DNA of 62,140 bases from Chloroflexota bacterium. Its GTDB lineage: Bacteria > Chloroflexota > UBA6077 > JACCZL01. The stretch covers positions 1-62,140 of the forward strand of contig JADZEM010000146.1 of NCBI GenBank assembly GCA_020850535.1, given 5' to 3'. Below, piece by piece: positions 1,193 through 5,343 of the stretch. The notes under the pieces are model-generated. The model worked only from the letters and a program-made list of their open reading frames with translations, was not told the DNA's origin and searched no databases. Position 1 is the first letter of the stretch. Every line of letters begins with the position of its first letter. The translations under genes and the position numbers were made by a program.

Positions 1193-2173
1193 TCACCCCG
1201 GGTAGGAGCCGGCCTCGCGGGCCCGGCGCACTACCAGGTGGTAGACCGTGTCTATCGTCGGGGTGGGCACCTCGACCAGCCGCCCAAGCTCCGACACCAC
1301 GCCCACCAGCGCGTCGATCTCCATCGGGCGGCCCTTCTCCAGATCCTGGAGCATTGACGTGCGGTGCGCGCCGACCTCTTGCGCCGCCTCGATCCGCTTG
1401 TCCACCGTCATCGCGAATCGCACCCCGAGCTTCTCGCCCACCGCCTGGGCCTCCACCATCATCTGGCGGATCACCGCGTGGGTGTGCGGATCGCGGGTCA
1501 GGTCCTCCAGCGTCGAGAGCGTCAGGGCGCTGACCGGGTTCAGCGAGAGGTTGCCCCAGAGCTTGACCCAGATCTCGTTGCGGAGGTTCGGGCGGATGGG
1601 CGCTTTGAGGCCGGCCGACGCCAGCGCCTGAGAGAGCGCCTGGACTCGCTCCGACTTGCTGCCGTCAGGCTCGCCCACGGAGATGCGGTCGCCGTACTCG
1701 TGCTGGATGACGCCCGGCTCCACGACCTCGCAGGCGGGCCAGAGGATGCAGCCGACAGCCCGCTCCGGCCCGAAAACGTCCCACTGCTTGTTCCCAGGAT
1801 CGACGGTCTCCAGACGGTGGTTCTCCCACGGTCCCGCCAGCTTGTAGAAGTACCACCAGGGGATGCCGTTGGACGCCGTCACCACGGCGGTGTTCGGGCC
1901 GAGCAGCGGGCGCATCAGCTCGGCCACGGGCGGCACCGAATGGGCCTTGAGGCTGATGAAGACGTAGTCCTGGGGGCCGGCCGCTTCGGCAGACTCGGCG
2001 AGGCGCGGGTGCGTGACGAACTCCTCGCCGTTCATGCGGATCGTCAGGCCGCGCTCGCGCATGGCCGCCAGGTGCGGCCCCCGCGCGACGAGCGTCACGT
2101 CCACGCCCTGCCGCGCCAGCAGGCCGCCGATCCAGCCGCCCATGGCGCCGGCCCCGAAGATACAGAGCTTCAT
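1193..2173 (-). CDS. 2-dehydropantoate 2-reductase family protein (ApbA/PanE-like)
   Basis: A 326-residue NADPH-dependent ketopantoate reductase family protein. The N-terminal Rossmann motif GAGAMGGWIGG follows the start, a SLKAHS segment carries the conserved lysine, and the C-terminal helical domain (about 175-320) includes the GRPMEIDAL stretch typical of the family. True PanE reduces 2-ketopantoate to pantoate for CoA synthesis. The window holds a second member at 56906-57847, and no other pantothenate gene accompanies either, so a role on another 2-keto acid is possible. GGAG lies just upstream of the ATG. It converges on the LysR gene with only 18 bases between. Confidence 0.88.
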   Translation of the reverse strand: MKLCIFGAGAMGGWIGGLLARQGVDVTLVARGPHLAAMRERGLTIRMNGEEFVTHPRLAESAEAAGPQDYVFISLKAHSVPPVAELMRPLLGPNTAVVTASNGIPWWYFYKLAGPWENHRLETVDPGNKQWDVFGPERAVGCILWPACEVVEPGVIQHEYGDRISVGEPDGSKSERVQALSQALASAGLKAPIRPNLRNEIWVKLWGNLSLNPVSALTLSTLEDLTRDPHTHAVIRQMMVEAQAVGEKLGVRFAMTVDKRIEAAQEVGAHRTSMLQDLEKGRPMEIDALVGVVSELGRLVEVPTPTIDTVYHLVVRRAREAGSYPG

Positions 2174-4012: not shown

Positions 4013-4260
4013 CTTCTCTCCAGGCCGGCATGCGGACGGGCGGATGCGCCAGGCGTCCGGTCAGGATCACCCATGCGCCGAGGGCGAGCGCGGCCAGGAC
4101 GAGCCTGGGGCGGGGCGAGCGGCGCGCCGGAATTCTAGCCCACTCCCTGATGCGCTGCCGTTGGCGATCCGACATGCCGCTGCACGGCTGTCTAAAGGTC
4201 CGATGAAATACCTGCAAGAGGTTTCAGGTTTAGACGTCTCGTCTGCTAGGCTGCACCCAG

Positions 4261-4353
4261 CGGAGGGGAGTATCTCCCCGGGCGTTGTCGTCAGTACGGC
4301 CAGCTTTCCAGGCCCGGCGACGCCGATCCATGGCGGATCGAGAGAGACCTCCG
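4261..4353 (+). ncRNA. yybP-ykoY manganese riboswitch
   Basis: All parts of the yybP-ykoY aptamer can be drawn. P1 is CGGAGG (4261-4266) with CCTCCG (4348-4353). The conserved loop GGGGAGTA is at 4265-4272. A long stem GGCGTTGTCG (4281-4290) pairs with CGGCGACGCC (4315-4324) and opens into TCAGTAC, as in the family. A further hairpin GATCC/GGATC is at 4325-4339, followed by GAGAGACC before P1 closes. This class senses Mn2+ and commonly precedes TerC/Alx exporters. CCTCC at 4348-4352 can alternatively pair with the GGGAGGG ribosome-binding site at 4378-4384, which predicts translation switched on by metal. Confidence 0.88.
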
Positions 4354-4377
4354 ACGAACGCGCTACGGCGCTTTGTC

Positions 4378-4384
4378 GGGAGGG
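4378..4384 (+). promoter_or_regulatory. Ribosome-binding site that decides the TerC start
   Basis: GGGAGGG lies five bases before the TTG at 4390. It is complementary to CCTCC at 4348-4352, the 3' strand of riboswitch stem P1, so it can be hidden when the aptamer is not formed. This supports TTG 4390 over the in-frame ATG at 4330, which lies inside the aptamer. Confidence 0.75.
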
Positions 4385-4389
4385 CCTCG

Positions 4390-5343
4390 TTGATCGAGAC
4401 CTGGATGTGGGTTGCGTTCACCGCGTTGATTCTGGGCCTGCTGGCCCTGGACCTTTTCGTCTTCCACAAGGATGCGCACGTCGTGTCCGTCAAGGAGGCG
4501 AGCATCTGGTCCGTCATCTGGGTGAGCCTTGGCCTGTTGTTCGGCGGCGTGGTCTGGGCCTGGCTCGGCGCCGAGCGCGGCGGCGAGTACTTCGCCGGCT
4601 ACCTGATCGAGAAGGCGTTGTCGGTTGACAACATCTTCGTCTTCGCGATGGTGTTCGCGTACTTCGCCGTGCCCGGCAAGTACCAGCATCGAGTGCTGTT
4701 CTGGGGCGTCGTCGGGGCCATCATCTTCCGCGCGATCTTCATCGTGGCGGGCGCCGAGCTGCTGAAGCAGTTCCACTGGCTGATCTACGTCTTCGGCGCG
4801 ATCCTCCTGGTCACCGGCCTCAAGATGGCGTTCGGCGGCGATACCGAGGTGCACCCCGAGAAGAACCCGGCCCTGAAGCTCGTCCGCCGCCTCATCCCGA
4901 TCTCGAACGAGTACCACGGGCAGCGCTTCTTCGCGCGGCACGCCGGCAAGCTGGTGGCGACGCCCCTCTTCGCGGTGCTGCTGATCGTCGAGACCACGGA
5001 CATCCTGTTCGCCATCGACTCGATCCCGGCGATCTTCGCGGTGACCCGCGAGCCGTTCATCGTCTTCGCCTCGAACGCCTTCGCGATCCTCGGCCTGCGC
5101 TCGCTGTACTTCGTGCTGGCGGACATGATGTACCGCTTCAAGTACCTGAAGGTCGGGCTGGGCGGCATCCTGATCTTCGCGGGCGTCAAGATGGGCCTGA
5201 CCGAGACGGCCTACAGGGTCGATATCTGGCCCTCCCTGGCGGTGATCGGGCTGATCCTGGCCGTGTCGGTGCTGGCCTCGCTCTTCGCGACGCGCAACCA
5301 GAAGCCCGAGGGTGAGCGGCCTGCCGAGGTGGCTGCCGCCTGA
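4390..5343 (+). CDS. TerC/Alx-family integral membrane protein, likely Mn2+ exporter
   Basis: A polytopic membrane protein of 317 residues from TTG 4390. The TerC signature is clear: LALDLFVFHK near the N-terminus, EKALSVDNIFVFAMVFAYF at about 75-95, then repeated hydrophobic segments and TTDILFAIDSIPAIFAVT. The acidic residues in these helices are those proposed to handle metal. The family exports Mn2+ or serves metal loading. The manganese riboswitch at 4261-4353 directly upstream supports the Mn2+ role. Longer reading starts (ATG 4330, TTG 4285) are in frame but fall inside the riboswitch. The charged C-terminal tail is normal. Confidence 0.92.
   Translation: MIETWMWVAFTALILGLLALDLFVFHKDAHVVSVKEASIWSVIWVSLGLLFGGVVWAWLGAERGGEYFAGYLIEKALSVDNIFVFAMVFAYFAVPGKYQHRVLFWGVVGAIIFRAIFIVAGAELLKQFHWLIYVFGAILLVTGLKMAFGGDTEVHPEKNPALKLVRRLIPISNEYHGQRFFARHAGKLVATPLFAVLLIVETTDILFAIDSIPAIFAVTREPFIVFASNAFAILGLRSLYFVLADMMYRFKYLKVGLGGILIFAGVKMGLTETAYRVDIWPSLAVIGLILAVSVLASLFATRNQKPEGERPAEVAAA

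Follow-up and report, generated by a model that had tools for sequence, protein, structure and literature searches.

The yybP-ykoY riboswitches are a widespread manganese-sensing class. The member from Lactococcus lactis acts by transcription termination (PMC11087558). In Escherichia coli mntP, the ribosome-binding site is hidden without manganese and freed with manganese (PMC11647493). Helix P1.1 is stabilized by Mn2+ (PMC6754395). A terC gene downstream of the riboswitch is induced by manganese (PMC13274385), and a reference title in the same paper describes Alx from E. coli as a TerC protein. A P2 hairpin, which gives a four-way junction, is usual, but it does not define the class: a three-way-junction member has been described (PMC9495176).

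We analyzed 62,140 nucleotides of DNA from a Chloroflexota bacterium (the window), in which an initial annotation had proposed a manganese riboswitch upstream of terC. Sequence and comparison establish the fold, its covariation, its class, two mutually exclusive pairings, the gene, and the gene's start position. By these, the leader 5' of terC is a yybP-ykoY-class RNA of the three-way-junction form, with P2 absent. The best explanation, which we think is very probably correct, is that it is a P2-less yybP-ykoY Mn2+ riboswitch and a translational ON switch for terC.

The aptamer upstream of terC

All features at this locus are on the forward strand. Helix P1 (P1.1) pairs CGGAGG (4261-4266) with CCTCCG (4348-4353) and covaries in 81 relatives (see below). 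L1, the docking loop of the class, has GGAGTA on its 5' side (4267-4272, aligned to the consensus) and GAGA on its 3' side (4344-4347, from the model alignment). P1.2, which is also supported by covariation, pairs TCTC (4273-4276) with GAGA (4340-4343). At the position of P2 there is only a linker, CCCG (4277-4280), which joins P1.2 to P3 and is alike in the relatives. The P3 arm (4281-4324) is made up of P3.1 (GGCGTTG at 4281-4287 with CGACGCC at 4318-4324, supported by covariation and the model alignment), L3 (TCGTCAGTACG, 4288-4298) opposite CCGG (4314-4317), and P3.2 (GCC with GGC). The P4 hairpin, GATCC-ATGGC-GGATC (4325-4339), has the in-frame ATG (4330-4332) in its loop, so the initial annotation was right to place this ATG inside the aptamer.

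The motifs named in that annotation can be read directly at their coordinates: GGGGAGTA spans 4265-4272, with the GGAGTA of L1 within it; GTCGTCA is at 4287-4293; GAGAGACC is at 4342-4349; and GGGAGGG and TTG lie further downstream. (TCGTCA includes the adenosine that, in this class, putatively contacts Mn2+.) The annotation also claimed that all of the paired parts of the aptamer are present. This is correct for P1.1, P1.2, P3.1, P3.2, and P4, all of which are backed by covariation, but not for P2. Other features of the class are also present: GGGGAGUA in L1 and GAGACC flanking P1, the L3 core UCGUCAnnnCG ... CCGG in P3, and a position in the leader of a gene for Mn2+ homeostasis (TerC). The P2 hairpin is absent from the window and from at least 119 loci that were chosen for a short gap between L1 and L3. 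We considered the loss of P2 as a novelty and dropped this idea, given those loci in several phyla and the published three-way-junction member.

Relatives and covariation

Immediately 5' of the two nearest TerC orthologs in the class, which are 66 and 61% identical, lies the same element, carrying compensatory changes. A small covariance model built from the window and these two loci (three sequences) has hits in 21 of the 400 phylum genomes. At least 119 loci, in genome records from Actinomycetota, Bacillota, Pseudomonadota, and Chloroflexi, fit an exact pattern in which the gap between L1 and L3 is short. We also trained a model on 81 relatives that did not include the window (R2). R2 matches the window at 4250-4361 with 90.1 bits and E = 5e-22 (next match, E = 0.2), where the E-values are rough due to a shortened calibration, and where R2 is independent of the window in its parameters but not wholly in its training alignment, which was aided by an earlier model that included the window. 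Across the 7.65-Mb genome, the terC aptamer has E = 6e-20, and R2 has matches in 72 of the 400 phylum genomes. (A weak match in the same genome, L157, with E = 0.06, falls within a gcvPA-like gene; we regard it as chance.)

In the alignment of the 81 relatives, 24 of 25 pairs have two-sided changes, which, together with the R2 match, supports the proposed class. Paired cells amount to 92.5% (versus 66.4% after shuffling and no more than 58% after sliding), and the covariation score is 0.699 (versus 0.226). Because this alignment was fitted to the structure, we also counted P1 and P1.2 without gaps from fixed anchors. Across the at least 119 loci, the anchored count agrees with the covariation in the alignment, and P1.2 covaries position by position, with UA, CG, GC, and AU types.

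The initial annotation had suggested a search with Rfam model RF00080 and took the lack of a significant hit as a refutation. RF00080 has no match at 4261-4353, even at E ≤ 10, which, taken literally, is that refuting outcome. We consider this a property of the model and give it little weight, because clear TerC-linked relatives are missed as well. RF00080 is silent on 20 relatives that were found by structure. Across seven genome records, it recovered two sites in Paenibacillaceae, which at 43.6 and 36.9 bits fall below the 45-bit cutoff, and the ones in Streptomyces, Mycolicibacterium, Bacillus, Aeromonas, and Chloroflexi went undetected. In its printed alignment, the consensus lacks the P1 pairs and has a different L3. 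The terC aptamer does not reach the gathering score, which is an operational test and not a property of the class.

As an observation about the model itself, RF00080 (Rfam release 15) misses most P2-less members, even those from Streptomyces and Mycolicibacterium, and the family is probably undercounted. Pipelines that rely on this model would undercount the riboswitch, as the P2-less form is missed in this phylum and in actinobacteria.

Genes near the riboswitch

The proposal that a riboswitch controls terC is well supported by comparison: besides the nearest orthologs, a TerC-family gene lies no more than 1.6 kb away in 98 of the 119 pattern loci among the matches listed. Loci in the phylum also precede genes for CaCA exchangers, MneA-like proteins, a P-type ATPase, and an MgtC-like protein (names other than TerC come from reading the sequences, not from Pfam). 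Such genes are the usual company of the yybP-ykoY class.

Two further members of the class occur in the same genome, one preceding a CDF exporter and the other a CaCA exchanger. The site before the cation diffusion facilitator gene (L001 1501-1601, reverse strand; G000:C95) has a P2 and scores 35.6 bits with RF00080, below the cutoff. The site before the CaCA-type exchanger (L156, about 1501-1646, reverse strand; G000:C107:9025-9170) has a P2, together with what looks like a terminator (CCGCGGC..GCCGCGGGTTTTT). The class appears to work through both transcriptional and translational platforms within this one genome. The terC aptamer is predicted to add Mn2+-responsive control to the genome, in which the three members of the class each precede a different transporter family. 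Three other sites of the class (L020, L019, and L026) precede genes outside our transporter queries, a response regulator-like ORF at L020 and unassigned genes at L019 and L026; these are possible unusual targets.

The start codon of terC

The gene terC (4390-5343) encodes an integral membrane TerC protein of 317 amino acids (PF03741, E = 8e-52, 176 bits versus a cutoff of 27.8). Its reading frame stays open upstream as far as TTG 4285. The N-termini of the orthologs align within one residue of TTG 4390 (4390-4392), and nothing in this comparison aligns with the 20 extra residues that a start at ATG 4330 would add. TTG 4390 is in frame with TerC and lies five bases after the last G of GGGAGGG. 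These results support the start proposed in the initial annotation, TTG 4390, over ATG 4330. Going by the sequence alone, ATG 4405 may be an alternative start, which would make the protein five residues shorter; it has no well-spaced Shine-Dalgarno sequence.

Just 5' of the aptamer is a -10-like element, TAGGCT (4247-4252), which is a likely promoter with a weak -35. Among 23 phylum loci, 18 have TAnnnT within the 28 nt that precede P1, versus 5.3 expected by shuffling; a strict sigma-70 scan near the terC aptamer found no promoter. Transcription of terC probably starts near 4258, and this argues against any start codon further upstream. The start of terC is corrected to TTG 4390, instead of ATG 4330 or a codon upstream of it.

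A predicted translational switch

The Shine-Dalgarno sequence GGGAGGG (4378-4384) is five bases before TTG 4390, and the relatives have GGAGG at a similar spacing. As the initial annotation noticed, the 3' strand of P1, CCTCCG (4348-4353), has two exclusive partners: CGGAGG (4261-4266) or the Shine-Dalgarno arm GTCGGGAGG. In the second fold, an anti-P1 hairpin (CCTCCGACGAACGCGC...GTCGGGAGG, 4348-4383) hides the Shine-Dalgarno sequence. This hairpin has a folding energy of -24.2 kcal/mol (z = -5.1), and none of 200 shuffles was as stable. For the window alone, a contiguous duplex between this strand and the Shine-Dalgarno sequence is not significant (p = 0.1). This test is weak for the window because of one bulged G, so we used hairpin folding instead.

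Our scan of the terC leader found no T-tract or terminator-like site after the anti-P1 hairpin, so the control of terC is most likely translational. Comparison points the same way. The 3' strand of P1 has a downstream complement (p ≤ 0.05 by mononucleotide shuffles) in 72 of the 118 loci listed; of these 72, 47 (mainly from actinobacteria) carry a Shine-Dalgarno-like sequence and lack a T-tract, and a T-tract is present in 21. The platform in the window sorts with the Shine-Dalgarno-like, T-tract-free loci. The translational platform of the initial annotation is thereby favored, with the choice of translation over transcription predicted from sequence features.

By nearest-neighbor energies, which lack tertiary and metal terms and cannot model docking, the OFF fold (-71.5 kcal/mol) is favored over the aptamer fold (-60.0) by 11.5 kcal/mol. 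Switching would therefore rest on metal docking and on co-transcriptional order. Calculated without metal, a favored OFF state is as expected for an ON switch. In free folding, the core of the Shine-Dalgarno sequence is mostly paired. If the aptamer fold is forced, A4381 and the TTG are free and the G's are partly so (unpaired probability of about 0.2-0.75), and part of the Shine-Dalgarno sequence may still pair locally.

We propose that, without Mn2+, CCUCCG (4348-4353) would pair downstream with GUCGGGAGG and the Shine-Dalgarno sequence would be buried. Mn2+ (with Mg2+) would dock L1 and L3 and stabilize P1, whose 5' strand (4261-4266) would take CCUCCG back. Ribosomes could then use the freed Shine-Dalgarno sequence to start TerC at TTG 4390, and TerC would export Mn2+. 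From the class and the gene context, we infer Mn2+ sensing and switching; we likewise predict that the ligand is Mn2+, that it turns terC on, that control acts on translation and not through Rho or pausing, and that TerC is the exporter.

There might be a second closing point. In the OFF state, the 5' strand of P1.2 (UCUC/UCCC) could pair with the GGGGA of L1 in place of its P1.2 partner, which would hide the loop that docks the metal. The competing hairpin in the window (AGGGGAGTATCTCCCC, 4264-4279) has -10.4 kcal/mol and z = -3.6, and 89 of the 93 listed loci whose P1.2 begins with neither GC nor AC could form such a hairpin with four or more pairs. This may be only a by-product of sequence constraints on P1.2, and we think that the second closing point is doubtful. 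If it were true, the P2-less, G+C-rich branch would close at two places, the Shine-Dalgarno sequence and the sensor loop.

Alternative explanations

The same aptamer could act on transcription, by intrinsic or Rho-dependent termination, instead of on the ribosome-binding site. The 21 of 72 complement-bearing relatives with a T-tract after the anti-P1 hairpin, the apparent terminator before the CaCA exchanger in the same genome, and E. coli mntP, which joins translational control to Rho termination (PMC11647493), are consistent with this. But the terC leader has no T-tract or terminator-like site, and the Shine-Dalgarno sequence itself sits in an arm of the hairpin; transcriptional control is unlikely here. 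We think it is slightly less likely still that the ligand is a different divalent ion (Ca2+, or both), as has been reported for the three-way junction before mgtA in Streptococcus. The three-way-junction member from Streptococcus binds Ca2+ and Mn2+ (PMC9495176), and some relatives of the terC aptamer precede CaCA exchangers and P-type ATPases. On the other hand, the target gene here encodes TerC, a family tied to Mn2+ (PMC13274385), and the L1 and L3 core fits the consensus of the class.

It is extremely improbable that the element is a chance G+C-rich foldback that resembles the motifs, with TerC starting from ATG 4330 or upstream. The silence of RF00080 and the open frame back to TTG 4285 would fit such a foldback; the window-free model (E = 5e-22), the strong covariation, and the ortholog starts within one residue of TTG 4390 do not. 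A P2-less Mn2+ riboswitch that acts on translation remains our preferred explanation.

Comparison with known systems

The yoaB riboswitch of L. lactis and the riboswitch of Xanthomonas oryzae (RF00080, four-way junction) share with the terC aptamer L1 (GGGGAGUA), L3 ((U)CGUCA..CCGG), GAGACC, helices P1.1, P1.2, P3.1, P3.2, and P4, and a downstream Mn-exporter gene. Unlike these, the terC aptamer lacks P2 and is unscored by RF00080 of release 15. The mgtA riboswitch of Streptococcus has the three-way junction and the class core in common with it (Martin et al. 2019, cited in PMC9495176). That member acts on transcription of a Ca2+/Mn2+ P-type ATPase (PMC9495176), whereas the terC aptamer precedes TerC and most likely acts on translation. 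In E. coli mntP, a gene for Mn2+ efflux is regulated at translation, as predicted for terC, but the mntP leader is longer, at 229 nt (PMC11647493). Both mntP and alx are of the sequence type of the Rfam model, unlike the terC aptamer.

The P2-less terC elements of Actinomycetota (such as L043 from Streptomyces and L048 from Mycolicibacterium) share the junction, the four-pair P1.2, and the TerC gene. Their Shine-Dalgarno sequence, GGAGG, is complementary to the 3' strand of P1, as it is at terC; they differ in having their own loop lengths and in the start codon, which is usually ATG or GTG. A three-way-junction member (PMC9495176), translational members (PMC11647493), and TerC targets (PMC13274385) have already been published, and the terC aptamer adds an unambiguous but unremarkable member to the class.
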